Shown: piece after piece, positions 9,564 to 18,588 of the stretch
Layout of the letters: each line of letters opens with the position of its first letter
Numbering within the stretch: position 1 is the stretch's first letter
Assembly: GCA_015499985.1 (NCBI GenBank)
Contig: JAAAUF010000392.1
Coordinates: 1 to 31,160, forward strand
Source of the DNA: Haplosporangium gracile
Taxonomy: Eukaryota > Mortierellomycota > Mortierellomycetes > Mortierellales > Mortierellaceae
Length of the DNA: 31,160 bases
Direction of reading: 5' to 3'
Notes under the pieces: generated by a model
Database searches by the model: none
Told to the model about the DNA's origin: nothing
The model's input: the letters and a program-made list of their open reading frames with translations, nothing else
Position numbers and translations under genes: made by a program

Positions 9564-11343
9564 ATGTCGCTCTCAAGCAGGATCGCATTGACAGCCACCC
9601 CCGCACGCCAGTACCTCACTCGCTCGTGCTTGACCACATCATCCACCACCTGGAGAACAACAACACCAGTTGCCTCCTCACTCATTTCCCAACCACAACG
9701 ATCTTTCTCTCACCAACACCCCTCCCTTCAGGTCACCCACAGCGACGACCATTCGCACTCCACTAAAAACCTTCACTCCCAAAAAAACAACGATGACAGC
9801 CAACTATCAACACAATTTGACCCCCCTCGCCTAATCTCCCGGATCTTAACCCATTACTGTCGCGAACCCCAACTTGTAATGATCGAGGGGTACGGGATCC
9901 TTCAGGGCGAGATGGATCAGAGTCGGTTGTTGACAAAGTACCTCAATGTCCCCTTTGCCAAGGTCCAGAACCGGTTTCGACAGGCTGTTGCGCCTGAGTC
10001 TTGGAAAGGAATCCGGGATGCGACACTTTACGGGTAATTATTTTGTTGTTGTTTTTTTGTGCGCACCGTTCTCTTCTCCTTTCCGTCATGAAATGCGAGT
10101 AAGCGAGCGAGTCCATGAGTGACGATAAATTTGATCTCGCATGACTTGTGACAAAAAAAGATGTGTTATCTGGGCAAAGCAATTACAGAAAGATAAGAAG
10201 GCTGACACATTTTTTTTTTTTTCATTGCTTCGATATCATGCAAAATAATATACCTTTTTAGACCCATGTGTCCACAGAACACACAAGAGTCCAACAACCT
10301 ATCCACATTGATGTTGGGTCTACCAGGACCAGGATTCGAGTACTCGGAACACGACTGCTTGAACTTGAATGTCTTTGCGCCCCGGTGCATTGTCGGTCAG
10401 GTGCCTGTTATCTGCTACATCCACGGTGGATTGAGTCAAGGAGGCATTGCTCTTCCCAAGCATGGTAAATGACCCCCATTCTTTGTTACTGAGTTTCACA
10501 ACATACGCATTGGCATGTACAGTATTGTACTTCCTTTAGTACCCTTGGGAAATTATGCAACTGGCCTCATTCATTACCTCCTAACATTGTACTGACTTGT
10601 ACCGACACGACATTTTCCTTTTTTTAGATGCAACAAACATTGTGAAAAAATCTGTCGCAAGGGGCCTTCCCGTCATTGTGGTAACGATTAATTACCGTCT
10701 CCTCCCGTCCGCGGGTTATCTAAAGGGGCCTGCAGGAAAGCATGGAGTCACCAACAAGGACAGGAAGAAAGTCGATGACGATGATGGGGAGGACGAGGAC
10801 GCGTCATTCAACTGGGGGTTGTATGACCAAAAGATTGCACTGGAATGGGTCCGGAAGCATATTCATAACTTTGGGGGCAACTCGAATGAGATTACGCTGA
10901 TGGGACATTCTAGTGGGGCGTCTTCTGCGGGGTACCATATGCTCACTACTGCGACGACGACAAAGACGAGACAACAACAGGATGGCAAGAAGAGGTTGTT
11001 CAAGCGGGCTATTATGTATTCAGGAGCACGAGAGGGGTCCTTGCAGCATATGAAGAACACCCATCGATTGGACTCGCTTATTGGAGATATGATGCCTATC
11101 GGATCATCATCTACATCATCATCGTCGTCGACGTCAATGTCGTCGCCCTTGACTGTGGGAAATGTTTCTGAACAGGAGAGCAAGGCCAAAGAGCAGCAGT
11201 CGACGTTCACATTCATGTCGGATGCATGTATACCTTTCATGGATGAAAAGGAGAAGCAGGCTGGATGGCGCGTTATCGACAAGTGGATTGATTTTGCTTG
11301 GGGTCAAGAGGGAGACTCTGTCAGTGACAGCGTCCGTTCGTAG
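9564..11343 (+). CDS. Type-B carboxylesterase-like protein, shortened, with mitochondrial-type leader
   Basis: Exons 9564-10033, 10262-10464 and 10628-11343 join in phase (TAC GG|A, CAT G|AT) into 462 residues. The fold is the alpha/beta-hydrolase of the carboxylesterase/cholinesterase family: a SEHDCLNLNVFAP block (near 186), the oxyanion-hole HGG (211-213), LPVIVVTINYRLLPSAGYL, NWGLYDQKIALEWVRKHI then NFGG (from 286), and the nucleophile elbow GHSSG with Ser319, followed by LFKRAIMYSGA. After that the protein is much shorter than usual for the family: a Ser-rich linker replaces most of the second half, and only a C-terminal helix-like piece (WRVIDKWIDFAWG) remains. The catalytic Glu and the late His are not visible. 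Residues 1-50 are rich in Arg, Ser and Thr without acidic residues, with QRSFSH as a possible cleavage region, which suggests mitochondrial import. Activity is therefore uncertain. It is followed by a fold-back element. Confidence 0.75.
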
Positions 11344-11679
11344 AGATTACTGTACCAGGATGAACTTATTTGTAAAAATACCTCTCTCGCTCTCACCGCA
11401 GCTAACTGTAACCAGGCTCTTTGTCAACAATGGTGCAACGGCCAATTGGTCTTCCGTCACTTTTTTTCGTCTGTGTGTGTGTGCAAAATACGCTTAATTA
11501 TGAGAGCAAGGCAAAGATGGTCCCTCTTTGCTTGCTCGCATTGAGATGAACAGTCGACAGTACAGTAGGATATTTAAGGCATCTCCCTCTCACCGCTCAA
11601 CCACCCAAGGAAAAGGTGGGGCACCGCCACGGGTAATGGTCAAAAAAATGTATCTCTCTCTCTCTCTTTGTCAACGACA
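11344..11679. other. Intergenic, 3' flank of the esterase gene
   Basis: No gene was seen. A short CT dinucleotide run lies at 11652-11668. ACGACA at 11674-11679 directly precedes the fold-back element and recurs at 12243-12248, a possible target-site duplication. Confidence 0.45.
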
Positions 11680-11862
11680 CAAAGCACAAGGAAGAAGCAA
11701 AGCTTTGAACCCAACCTATCATCAGCAATTTTTGCTGACGAGACGTTGGGTTACGCATCGTATTTCCTAAATGGAAGTCGCGCTTCCATTTTAGGAAGGT
11801 GACCACGTGACTACCAGCGGCCTAAGATCAATGGGCCATTTTTTTAAAAAAAACACCCCCAG
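11680..11862 (+). repeat. Left arm of the fold-back element
   Basis: Pairs with 12063-12242 in reverse complement. It contains a hairpin at 11764-11797 (CCTAAATGGAAG against CTTCCATTTTAGG), another around ATCAGCAA/TTGCTGA (11720-11739), and a CACGTG at 11804-11809. Confidence 0.8.
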
Positions 11863-12013
11863 TCTTTTTTGCACTCCCATTGAATTGAAAATAAGTGTTA
11901 TTCAATTTGGCGACCTTGTCTAATATCCTCACAGAGTTTACCTCTCCGTGATTCGTAAATCCAAGCAGAAAAGTGAATTGAATAATACTCCTTATATTTT
12001 CACTCCAATAATG

Positions 12014-12052
12014 AAAATGCTCCATTTTCTCCTATGATAACTGGAGCATTTT
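12014..12052. repeat. Internal perfect 11-bp hairpin of the fold-back element
   Basis: AAAATGCTCCA at 12014-12024 is the exact reverse complement of TGGAGCATTTT at 12042-12052, with a 17-base loop. It lies in the right half and has no equally strong partner in the left arm, which has only the shorter TTTGCACTCCCATTG-like stretch. This suggests an insertion on the right or a loss on the left. Confidence 0.75.
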
Positions 12053-12062
12053 GCAAATAGGG

Positions 12063-12242
12063 CTGGGGTGTTTTTTGTTTTTAAAAAAAAGGCCCATTGG
12101 TCTGAGGTCGCTATAGTCACGTGTCCACACTCCTAAAATGGAAGCCGCGCCTCCATTTTAGGAAGTACGATGCGTAAGAGCGAGCCTCTCGTCAGCAAAA
12201 ATTGCTGATGAGGGGTTGGGGTTCAGAGTTTCGCGCTTTGTT
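12063..12242 (-). repeat. Right arm of the fold-back element
   Basis: Reverse-complementary to 11680-11862. It holds the counterpart hairpin TCCTAAAATGGA/TCCATTTTAGGA (12131-12163) and CACGTG at 12118-12123. Differences from the left arm are mainly single-base changes and short indels, so the arms have diverged since they formed. Confidence 0.8.
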
Positions 12243-12403
12243 ACGACAAGTTCGTCCAATAACGTGATGTTTTTGATTGCTCTTTTCGACTCTCACAGAT
12301 CCTGAATGACCGCCGCCTTGCATAACACTTTTTATGCATTTGAGTTTTCGAGATGAACAAAGTGTTTGCTTTGCCACTGCCACCAAAAAGCCGAGCAACA
12401 ACG

Positions 12404-14015: not shown

Positions 14016-17000
14016 ATGAAGGTAACGAGAAATACTAATGACCTTATTTTTTTCAACGTCAGGCAGACAAATTGAAAAAGACCCTTTATTCACTTCTGCC
14101 ACGAAAAAAAATAAACACTCACGCTCCCTCTGCTTCCTCCTTCCTCCTTCCTCATTACGACTGTTCCATCAATAGTTCGGAAAGCAGATTCAGTTTCAAC
14201 AGATTCCAGAATGGCAGAGCCATTACATGAGCTACAAGGGTCTCAAGAAGATCATTAACTCGCTCATTCAGGAAAAGGCACAGATATCCGTCACCATCGC
14301 TGCATCCCCTCCACCGCTTGGATCAGAGCCCGAACCCGAGTCCGAGGCCGAGGCCGCGTCGTCGTCGCTATTACCTGAGGATGAGAACTCGACACTTTTG
14401 CAGTCCCAGAAGGCTGCGTTTTTCTTTAAGCTCGAGCGTGAACTCGAAAAGGTAATGCTTGCCTTTTTTTTTTTTTTTNNNNNNNNNNTTTGCGGTTGCG
14501 AAACATTTGTCGTTACTGTTGGTTCAATCACGGATCCCAATTGGAATTCGAATTGACTGCATAGGCACTCACATTTTTTCATTTACTTCTGTGTGCGTAT
14601 AGGTTAACTCGTTCTATTTGCAAAAAGAATCTGAGCTGAAGGTTCGGCTACGATCCCTGATTGACAAGGAGAAAGTCATCCTGTCGCGTCAGGGAAGGCC
14701 AGGAACCAGTTCCTCGATCAATTCTCTCAAGGAGGCGTTCAAGCAGTTCGAGCAGGACCTCAACAAACTACAGGTAATTTTAACTTGGATAACTGGTCTT
14801 TGTACCCAAGATGTACCCAAAAAGGAGGGATAGCAACATTCATTGCGCACAGTTGAATGCATGATAATGATAATGATAATGAAAAATGAAAAATGAGAAC
14901 TAAAAACGCCTCCGCTCTCGTCCAATGCAAAACCCCTACTATTACATTGTCCTCGTGTTCATTTCGTACTAATTACGACCCAATTGCTATCAACCCTCCT
15001 TCTACCCTTGTCATTGTCTATACCCCTACAGAAATTTGTCGAGACCAATGGTACGGGGTTCCGAAAGATCTTGAAGAAGTGGGATAAACGGTCAAAGTCG
15101 ACGACTAAGGAACTCTACCTCGCCCGTCAGGTCGATCTCCAGCCGTGCTTCAACCAGGACGCCATGGTCGAGCTTGCCGACAGTGCCGCACATCATCTCC
15201 TCGGCCTGGACGATATTCAGCAAGGTCGTCCCTCTTCAGCACCCTCAAGTCCTATCTCCAGCAAACCTGCGCCCACGCATTCATATGCCCCTTCTTCCCC
15301 GATGCAGCAACAAATGGATGAACTGGAAACTGACCTCTTCAACGCCTTGACCACCAACCAATCGTCGATCGTCCAAGAGATCCTGGAGCGTCGGCTCACC
15401 ACGCCATCGGGCACAAAGAATAGTTCGCTTGGAGTAGAGTCTTCTCAGCAACGACTTCATTCGAACCTTATCGGGCCTGAACATGCTCGCGAAGTGGTCT
15501 CGCGCTTGTTCTGGAGATGTTGTTCCGAGATCAATGTGTCGGACGCTGTCATCCAACAGCTGGTCGACACGGGCTTGGTCAACTTCAAGTTTGTCGACGA
15601 TATCAGTGACCGGACGTGTCTGCACGAGGCTGCTATGGTCGGGCGTCTGTCTCTTCTCAAATTAGCGGTCGAACGAGGGGCTGCTGTCGAGGGCTCAGAT
15701 GTCTATGGGAGACGGCCACTTCATTATGTCTCGATGCACGGCTACGACGACTGTGCGACCTATCTTCTTTCCTTGAACGCGTCCCTGACGGTGACGGATC
15801 ATGATGGATTCCAGCCTCTGATCTACTCGGTCATGAACGGTCATTCCAAGTGCGTAGAGATATTCCTTGCCAGTAACGTCGAGATCGAGGCCAATCGAGA
15901 GGGAGATCCGATCCCGTTGAGTCTTGCCTGTCACTATGGCCACGAGGATATCGCCATGATGCTCATTGGTCGTGGCGCCGATGTTCTTGCTAGCAATGCG
16001 GATGGCCTCGAGCCTCTTCATATCACTTGCCGAGAGGGACATACCAGACTGGCCAAGACTTTGACGACACGAGGAGCTCGACTCGACCAAGAGGACAAAT
16101 ACATGTGCTGGACACCTCTTTTCTATGCTGCCAGCGAAGGTCATGTTGAGTGCGTCAAGATTCTTCTGGAGGCGGGCTGCAAGGTGAATGTGATTGACGA
16201 ACACGGCAAGAATCCGATCTATTATGCTGCTAGTGAAGGTCATTCTGACTGTGTCGAGTTGTTGGTCGAGGCTGGAGGCAAGGCAATCGCGTCTCCACAG
16301 GACACTGTCATGGAGACTACAGCTGCAGTCACTGCGAGCAGCATGCTGAGTTCGTCAACCACCTCAGCCTTGGATTCTCACTATCCTGTACACCCGGACT
16401 CTATGGACAGCCCCACCAACATGGACGACCTCGATATGGAACTCATTCCTTCGCTCTCTCTCCCTCCACCCATCATTCCCTTCAGAATCTACGGACACAA
16501 CTATCTGGACAAGAAGTTCCAGATCAACCTGACGCTGGGTCACACTTCCTCGCCTGACCAGATTGGAGCCCGGCAATCACCTGTTCACCTTTACGGAACG
16601 GCTCAGATCTCATCCTTAAAACTCGTCATCTCGTCGCGACCTGACAACGGCATGATCCCTCACAACGTGATTTTGCCCCTGGGCGAGAGCAGAAAGGTCT
16701 ATGGTTTCCAGGTGGACTCTTTGGATCAGTTCACAGTTGAGTTTGACATCTTTCCAACCTACGGAAGCAAGGCCATTGGACGAGCAGTTGCATTGCCCAT
16801 CACGTTCCTGTCGCCCTCGTTGTCCGTGGGCAAGGGTCTTCTTCCGCTCTTTGATGCCCATTTGAAGGTTGTCGGAGAGCTTGCCTTTGAGTACACGGTC
16901 ATACGGCCGTTTGAGGGCGTTCGTTTGGAGGTTGGAGGTCGTCTGGAAACTTATTGGAAGTCGACAAACAGTGTCGATTCGACCATCTCTGCCTCCGCCA

Positions 17001-18588
17001 CACCTCTCACGGGCACACCACCTTCACTCACACCCGTCAGCACATCGACCTCGCGTGGCACGTTGCCTTACCCTACGCCTCAGACGACTCTTGCTGGCAA
17101 CGTGATCCCGTCCTACATCACGGCGTCGTCACTCTCGGGGGAGTACATTCAGCTTTCTATTCAGATGACCAGGGACTGTATTCCTGTTGTTTTTGGCAAC
17201 TGGCAACTGCCTGTGGAAGGATTTGATTTGGCATTGTCGGACGTGAGCTTTGCACAGTTCAAGCGGTTTGGGCAGCTGATTCATCAGAAAGGGACGAGTG
17301 AGGATCTGGAGAGCATTAACATTCGTCTGGCAAATACTTGGAAAGCGGCCGAGTGGCGACGTAAAGTCTACGAGCGCTGGATGAGTCTTGAGCAAGTCCT
17401 CAAGGTAACCATCATCCCTTTCTTCATATTTGCTCTTATCAAGGGTTTCTTAGAAATCGTTTATTCTAACTACTGCCTCATTGTTTCTTTAGATCCTTCC
17501 CAAGAATATTGGAGTGAATTTGGAACTAAAGTATCCGACAGCGGCAGAGAGACGGTTCTACCGACTGAACAATACGGTCGAGTTCAACAAGTTTGTTGAC
17601 ACTATCCTTCAGACTGTCTACGACTCATCCTCAGCATCGCACCACCGCAGCTTCATGTTTTCGTCCTTTAGCCCTGTTGTTTGCTCCGCCCTCAACTGGA
17701 AGCAGCCCAACTGTACGTCTTCTCTTTTTGTTGTTGCCACCAATTTTGCACCCGCTCCTTTTCTTTCTCACACATCTCTTATTTTCTTTTTGTATTAGAC
17801 GCGGTGTTTTTCAACACATATGGAGGATACAACAAGCGACACAGGTCAGGCATTGCATGGACAGACGAGGTTGCCAAGGCTGGTTCCAAGAGACGGGAGC
17901 CCGCAGACCCAGAAATCCTCCCTTCACCCAAGCATGGTTCAGGCGCAACTACCATGTTTCCAAACCTGGGAGTCGATGGAATGGGAGGCGCTCCACCTTC
18001 GAGCGCATCCTCGGATACTGTCACGTCGTCACCCAGATTGGACTCATCTGCGATGTTTCCATCTGTTCAGAGCATACTTGCAGACAACTCGGAAAAGTTT
18101 CAGGAGACGGATAAGCGATGCACATCGATCAAGGAGGCGATCAAGTTTGCGAGAACTAATAACCTCCTTGGTGTCATCTGCGACGCCACTCCTCTGGTAA
18201 GCGGTACAAAACAAAACAAGCTTATCGCATATGATACTTACGTCCACCTTCTTTACTGATCATTTTTTTCTATTTTTTTTTTCATCCACTTTGAAAATAG
18301 ATCCAAGTGCCGAGCTTGATCACGCATATCAAGGAATCAGGACTGATTCTGACTAGCTTCGGAAAACTCAATAAGGACCCAGCGTTGGTCCAGGTGCAAA
18401 AGAGTCATGGTGTGGATGCATTTATGATCATGGAAAGTAGTGAGGAGGTTGTTGCTTCGTACCATACTCTGTCGGAGAAGCACACTAGGACGGCGTCTTC
18501 TTCTTCTTCGAGGGTGCAACAGATGGCGCCATCGGTGATTGAGGTTGAAGAGGGAGTGTTGAGATACCATAGTGGCGTCGATTCGTAG
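14016..18588 (+). CDS. PHO81: PHO81/NUC-2-like phosphate-sensing regulator: SPX, ankyrin repeats, degenerate GDPD
   Basis: Seven exons: 14016-14021, 14176-14451, 14603-14773, 15032-17404, 17493-17712, 17799-18196, 18301-18588; 1243 residues. The first exon is only ATG AAG; splicing yields MKFGKQIQFQQIPEW, the canonical SPX start, and exon 3 opens with VNSFYLQKESEL, another SPX hallmark. The SPX domain (1-~170) binds inositol pyrophosphates in known proteins. Ankyrin repeats run from about 344 to 569 (DRTCLHEAA ... NPIYYAASEGHSDCVELL). A conserved PHO81-type region follows (FRIYGHNYLDKKF, near 635), then a GDPD-like region with LEVGGRLETYWKST and IPVVFGNWQLPVEGFD (near 868). The HRG and HD catalytic motifs of true glycerophosphodiesterases are not seen, which favours the PHO81/NUC-2 type (inhibitor of the PHO80-PHO85 cyclin-CDK) over GDE1. 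The end is Ser-rich. A run of Ns lies in intron 2, outside the coding sequence. Confidence 0.85.
14479..14488. other. Assembly gap of 10 N
   Basis: Ten Ns follow a long T run inside intron 2 of the PHO81-like gene. The true length of this intron is unknown; donor (14452) and acceptor (14601-14602) are outside the gap. Confidence 0.99.

Follow-up and report, generated by a model that had tools for sequence, protein, structure and literature searches.

A composite fold-back site: a likely pogo-type MITE at the centre of an outer inverted-repeat element

Positions 11680–12242 of the window (the whole stretch analysed here, contig C510, 31 160 bp) form a fold-back that is real but composite, being made of two non-coding repeats, one nested in the other. 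We consider it likely, with a probability of roughly 0.75, that the inner repeat is a pogo-type MITE centred exactly within an outer inverted-repeat element, itself likely a mobile fold-back. The kinds of element involved, a pogo-type MITE within a fold-back element, are ordinary; the members are new and the exact centring is odd. The fold-back site is probably without host function.

Results

The fold-back and its parts

With DNA parameters, 11680–12242 folds on itself far past chance, at −164.6 kcal/mol compared with −60.45 ± 4.63 kcal/mol for 100 dinucleotide shuffles of the same interval (z −22.5), none of which folded as well. The fold-back reported in the preliminary description is thus real. 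The extensive pairing also stands, with a lower count than the ∼500 of 563 positions given there, because the best fold pairs 444 of the 563 nucleotides. Its 222 pairs, 155 of which span more than 200 nt, leave only two hairpin loops, so that the best fold is essentially one long stem. The sub-hairpins described earlier are present, two in each arm (11718–11742 and 11764–11797 on the left, 12188–12212 and 12131–12163 on the right), but the branched fold that they were taken to produce is the weaker alternative: with RNA parameters the whole folds at −287 kcal/mol, as against −52, −72 and −56 kcal/mol for left arm, right arm and centre folded separately. The outer arms are mutually complementary at 81–82% of positions across ∼180 nt.

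Consistent with the earlier view that the site lacks coding capacity, none of the four open reading frames of at least 60 codons that overlap it reached the Pfam cut-off (best E 0.012, 16.4 bits against 27). An Rfam scan of the window gave no match at gathering score; across seven loci, with E up to 5, there were nine matches, all under the gathering score of their family and none in the window locus, L001. The features of the site are as follows.

11674..11679, + strand: left ACGACA, a doubtful target duplication (from sequence; chance 0.28% per pair, fixed ends)
11694..11752, + strand: left hairpin end module, TIR CAAAGCTTTGAACCCAACC plus hairpin (profile built without window copies, E 1.3e-9; alignment)
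11699..11859, + strand: left arm of the outer fold-back element (81–82% complementary to the right arm)
11764..11797, + strand: second sub-hairpin of the left arm (from sequence)
11860..12065, + strand: inner MITE of 206 bp, likely pogo-type, in the middle of the outer palindrome (dispersed relatives; ends common to DDE_1-bearing elements)
11860..11873, + strand: left TIR of the inner MITE, CAGTCTTTTTTGCA (window sequence compared with the ends of other copies)
11900..11985, + strand: conserved core of the inner MITE (eight-copy alignment; partial matches to transposase-bearing copies)
12051..12065, − strand: right TIR of the inner MITE, reading inward CAGCCCTATTTGCAA (window sequence compared with the ends of other copies)
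12066..12232, − strand: right arm of the outer fold-back element (81–82% complementary to the left arm)
12131..12163, − strand: second sub-hairpin of the right arm (from sequence)
12183..12236, − strand: right hairpin end module, reading inward GAAACTCTGAACCCCAACC plus hairpin (profile built without window copies, E 1.3e-9)
12243..12248, + strand: right ACGACA, a doubtful target duplication (from sequence; chance 0.28% per pair, fixed ends)

The centre is a separate, dispersed element

When the whole stretch was used to search the genome (37.5 Mb in 1157 contigs), six other contigs matched, C215 (at 87%), C267, C726, C242, C705 and C855, in every case only within 11871–12066; the centre alone as query returned the same six. 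The fold-back had been treated as one element, and this separate element at 11860–12065 had been missed. It is short (206 bp), non-coding and multi-copy, with flanks that differ between copies. Where ends are present, the copies take the form TA-CAGTCCTTTTTGCA plus the conserved core; the core lacks recognisable ends in C242 and C855 and has a single end in C705. A genome scan for CTAYASTCCTTTTTGCA with at most one mismatch found 19 ends, as compared with none for the reversed control. One of these matches, at C381, may be due to chance because the core is absent after it, and those at C411, C418, C852 and C947 lie less than 250 bases from a contig end, as expected, since long repeats break assemblies.

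TA is present on both sides in four of the six two-ended inner copies read (C267, C726, C535 and C14, the last two having been found with a pattern that itself includes TA), on one side in C215 and on neither in the window, where the flanks are of CC/GG type instead. The C535 copy (C535:20636–20665, in L045) is a perfect 30-bp palindrome in which two inner-element ends, each with its TA, meet directly, and that in C14 (C14:51152–51220, in L047) is a 69-bp version of the element. Two other identities considered for the inner core were rejected. As a structured RNA it was folded six times, for three copies on both strands, and only the two strands of the window copy reached z −2 (−2.9 and −2.0); as for a tRNA origin, ARAGORN, run with the bacterial code, found no tRNA in seven loci.

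Transposons that share the inner ends

In C274 and C1077 the same end as that of the inner element runs into open reading frames, on the other strand, that carry the DDE_1 domain PF03184 (7.1e-14 in C274; 1.9e-6 and 6.2e-5 in C1077, two more frames of which had no match). The inner element thus shares its ends with elements encoding a DDE_1-type transposase, the domain being found in three of the five partial frames scanned from these two copies; a CENP-B or helix-turn-helix domain was found in none of the five. Of the full-length, transposase-encoding relative that the preliminary description proposed to look for, there is a counterpart for the inner element (same end, PF03184); none was found for the outer one.

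The end in C274 matches the second C215 copy of the MITE at 83% over 93 bp (E 3.4e-22). Two shorter matches lie upstream of the C1077 transposase, one of 25 nt (84%, E 0.006) to the remaining half of the core of the window MITE and one of 29 nt (90%, E 1.8e-6) to the end in C231. These matches suggest a MITE made of both ends of its parent joined together, with a core that apparently unites the parent's two subterminal regions; such an origin is well supported for the 3′ side and weakly supported for the 5′ side.

Matches to the C274 transposase number 27 across the genome; they lie on 22 contigs, fall as low as 34% in identity and in 15 cases contain internal stops. Downstream sequence was read for seven transposase-bearing copies: the end was recovered by pattern in C274 and C1077 and, allowing three substitutions, in C265; in C992 it was recognised by eye only, having been missed by a pattern with four substitutions; and C418, C227 and C513 showed no such end in the sequence read. 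Among 57 relatives of the transposase listed, those with names come from Mortierella, Linnemannia, Haplosporangium and Actinomortierella. On sequence grounds, then, the inner element is likely to be a non-autonomous derivative (MITE) of the pogo-type transposons that have the same ends.

The outer element ends in a dispersed hairpin module

Used as genome queries, the right arm (E up to 1) and the left arm (E up to 10) matched only the window itself. These searches were insensitive, as shown by the module copies that both of them missed, and further whole copies of the outer element were not among what they returned. The single-copy outcome named beforehand as a possible refutation therefore holds in part, for whole arms in searches of this kind. 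The copies with shared ends and differing flanks that had been proposed as a check do exist for the inner element and for the end module of the outer one, and were not found for the arms as a whole.

The outermost 55–60 nt of the arms constitute a hairpin module with ends GAAGCTCTGAACCC that is present at seven other loci. A 25-nt pattern of the outermost hairpin, with up to three mismatches, found one site outside the window, in C651, and none in the control; this site is a 66-bp palindrome that agrees with the window module in both end sequence and hairpin. As a query it gave 12 matches on six contigs (C651, C219, C275, C643, C550 and C883), a lower bound because the same query missed both C785 and the window. 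A profile of the module was built without the window copies, with palindromes entered on both strands and a cut-off of 10. Over the window's 31 kb it matched only the two arms (four matches, both strands, E 1.3e-9 to 2.6e-8), these E-values being not fully independent since the search for the module had started from the window's own hairpin. The other sub-hairpin, 11764–11797/12131–12163, was rejected as a dispersed module: a 21-nt pattern gave five matches, three of them in the window, and the control gave three.

A complete 513-bp sister of the outer element lies at C785:15068–15580, with two inverted end modules (profile E 1.6e-19 and 1.9e-13) and with an 8-bp direct repeat, AGGAGTTA, abutting both ends. 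It was picked by eye, on 16 exact bases, from an outer-TIR pattern scan that was uninformative by count (eight matches against 10 in the control), and was then confirmed by the profile. Its ends are 94% complementary over 47 nt and its fold has a z of −21.3; inverted repeats thus take up nearly the whole length of the outer element, both here and in the window fold. Beyond the ends, the C785 interior has no match better than E 0.4 to the window element. It is palindromic as well, with nested inverted repeats of 42, 32 and 25 nt, and part of this interior is common to C275 and C219.

A shorter copy of the outer type, ∼70 bp, is found in C883 with the 9-bp sequence ATTGTTTTG on both sides; an abutting 9-mer match is expected by chance with P 3.8e-5 per pair. 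The copies in C651, C643 and C550, like that in the window at 11699/12232, have no flanking duplication in the sequences read, so that a duplication accompanies two of the six two-ended copies of the outer type (8 bp in C785, 9 bp in C883). Two candidates were rejected as further two-ended copies: for C275, a second end was not detected by the profile over the 781 bp that follow the first, and C219, considered as a long copy, reads as its own mirror image, for which reason its two module copies were counted once.

C219 (118 361 bp; L081, L091–L096) mirrors itself wherever it was sampled: agreement is complete at the contig ends (250 of 250 positions) and, apart from a single 2-nt gap, in an inner sample (200 of 200), and amounts to 98.7% across the 3.16 kb in the middle. 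The assembler probably joined two haplotypes, or one contig, head to head; a real giant palindrome is less likely. A separate observation is a dispersed repeat starting TAGGCTCGACTCCAGCCATCGATA (L097:246–277 and 603–634, L082, L081, L056), common to C785, C275, C219 and C726 (29 nt), which may resemble a tRNA T-arm.

Ends and centre of the window element

In direct register, the arms cease to pair no more than 2 nt from the module ends that the relatives indicate, 11699 and 12232. The 9-mers flanking these ends differ, with no abutting duplication. The 6-bp duplication ACGACA proposed in the preliminary description is there as letters, but as a target duplication it is at odds with the 8 and 9 bp of the two outer relatives; its chance of 0.28% per pair applies to a matching 6-mer no more than 2 nt away from ends that are fixed, and is higher if the ends are chosen freely. 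It adjoins a 7-nt inverted match, ACAAAGC (11679–11685, 12235–12241), which lends some support to the wider ends first given; both matches lie beyond 11699 and 12232, by up to 20 nt on the left and 11 nt on the right.

No spacer separates the inner MITE from either outer arm, which puts it at the centre. Complementary bases directly outside the inner copies number five in C267 and three in the window (in direct register; longer with one gap), one each in C535, C14 and C215, and none in C726. Since the flank pairing of these six two-ended copies is mostly 0–1, centring is on present data not a general habit of the inner element. Four of the six lack palindromic surroundings, and the C267 copy occupies the middle of a palindrome with five perfect pairs.

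Discussion

In the simplest history, the outer element would have been moved by a transposase that recognises hairpin ends and makes 8–9-bp duplications, as Mutator and fold-back elements do. The inner element, mobilised in trans by a pogo-type transposase, would then have entered the outer palindrome, the older of the two, at a central TA, and the site would have decayed afterwards, leaving arms that are now ∼19% apart. The C-rich flanks that replace TA on both sides of the inner copy call for something further, either exchange between the arms or an inverted duplication.

The inverted duplication would have arisen where a MITE stood beside a small hairpin element and repair copied one flank, inverted, to the other side; the arms would then be flanking sequence present in duplicate instead of a transposon. 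It would explain why the MITE is central, with no spacer and with flanks that pair perfectly over 12 nt, why TA is gone alike on both sides, and why genome queries with the arms found no second copy of them. Even so we think it unlikely, because the palindrome in direct register stops at most 2 nt from the known end of the module on both sides, and because the complete sister in C785 has the same ends around another interior and carries an 8-bp duplication. The direct junction of arms and MITE, and the single fold that covers everything, would equally suit a pogo-type MITE with greatly lengthened terminal repeats, outer arms included, that moves as a unit. This we regard as very unlikely: the other inner copies read carry no outer arms, and in C651, C643, C550 and C883 the outer module is present with no inner element.

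The strength of the fold (z −22.5) might also be thought to reflect a selected, structured transcript, either a hairpin RNA precursor or a regulatory RNA. Against this, the window has no Rfam match at gathering score; the differences between the arms comprise 13 transitions and 11 transversions, with the wobble-compatible ones split 8 to 5 between the strands; and of the inner-core folds only two of six, both from the window, reach z −2. A selected transcript is thus a distant prospect. More improbable still is an artefact of assembly in which a sequence was joined to its own reverse complement. C219, from the same assembly, seems to be a case of this, mirroring itself as it does, but the arms in the window are ∼19% different, short, and placed off the centre of the contig.

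The preferred reading, a pogo-type MITE within a mobile fold-back element, might be extended to a family of ‘Russian-doll’ palindromes that share a hairpin end and grow by pogo-type insertion into extruded hairpin tips, with the window as the clearest case. We hold this to be a long shot. The central loop of C785 contains a string that resembles a pogo TIR; it was noticed after the fact, and 38 of 20 000 shuffled loops and 47 of 20 000 38-mers from the window score as well. If insertion into hairpin tips did occur, it would be a simple way for fold-back elements to gain length, and hairpin extrusion in the living nucleus could be tested by mapping insertions. Otherwise, the site would be ordinary selfish DNA of a likely Mortierella-type fungus, of use for annotation.

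Fold-backs of this type are usually filed as a single MITE; here two element families lie in register, and the outer one keeps its hairpin end around a palindromic interior that differs between the window member and C785. The earlier assignment of the site to non-autonomous fold-back or MITE-type DNA is supported. FARE, Tnr8, Drosophila FB and SoFT are fold-back elements that can fold back over nearly their full length, and in this they resemble the outer element.

For the inner element the comparison is with the pogo family of Tc1/mariner and its MITEs, as presented in PMC7325037: DDE_1 in the parent, short TIRs and TA beside most two-ended copies are alike, whereas the partial frames scanned had no CENP-B/helix-turn-helix domain and the window copy lacks TA. 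For the outer element it is with Tm1, a Mutator/Foldback element of root-knot nematodes which, according to PMC3169594, has structured inverted repeats, MITE-like members, duplications of 8–10 bp (mostly 9) and, in one copy, another inverted-repeat element inside it. These traits recall the present elements. In contrast, the ends of Tm1 hold arrays of 13–15-bp tandem repeats (PMC3169594), and the window element has a single hairpin module and no linked transposase. In PMC3310237, plant elements likewise have extra inverted repeats within one element, with nested insertion discussed as one origin; they differ in TIRs that are typically 100–500 bp and mostly tandem, and in duplications of 9–11 bp. 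A search of open-licence papers found no description of these families in Mortierella-type fungi, a scope that says little.

Neighbouring sequences

Left of the fold-back, ending ∼340 bp from it, the window has a carboxylesterase-like open reading frame at 10597–11343 (PF00135, 1.2e-25). Elsewhere in the window, at 15014–17596, is a PHO81-like gene, 95% identical over 92% of the query to a Linnemannia elongata gene. To judge from this gene and from the named relatives of the transposase, the host, a soil fungus, is likely a member of the Mortierellaceae. Near the end of C215, at L002:2030–2173, an LSU rRNA-like fragment (41.9 bits, under the gathering score of 50) lies ∼290 bp away from one of the inner-element copies. 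The sequence CGCCATAATTACGTCACCGAAG occurs near inner-element ends in both L008 and L057 and is perhaps another short repeat family.
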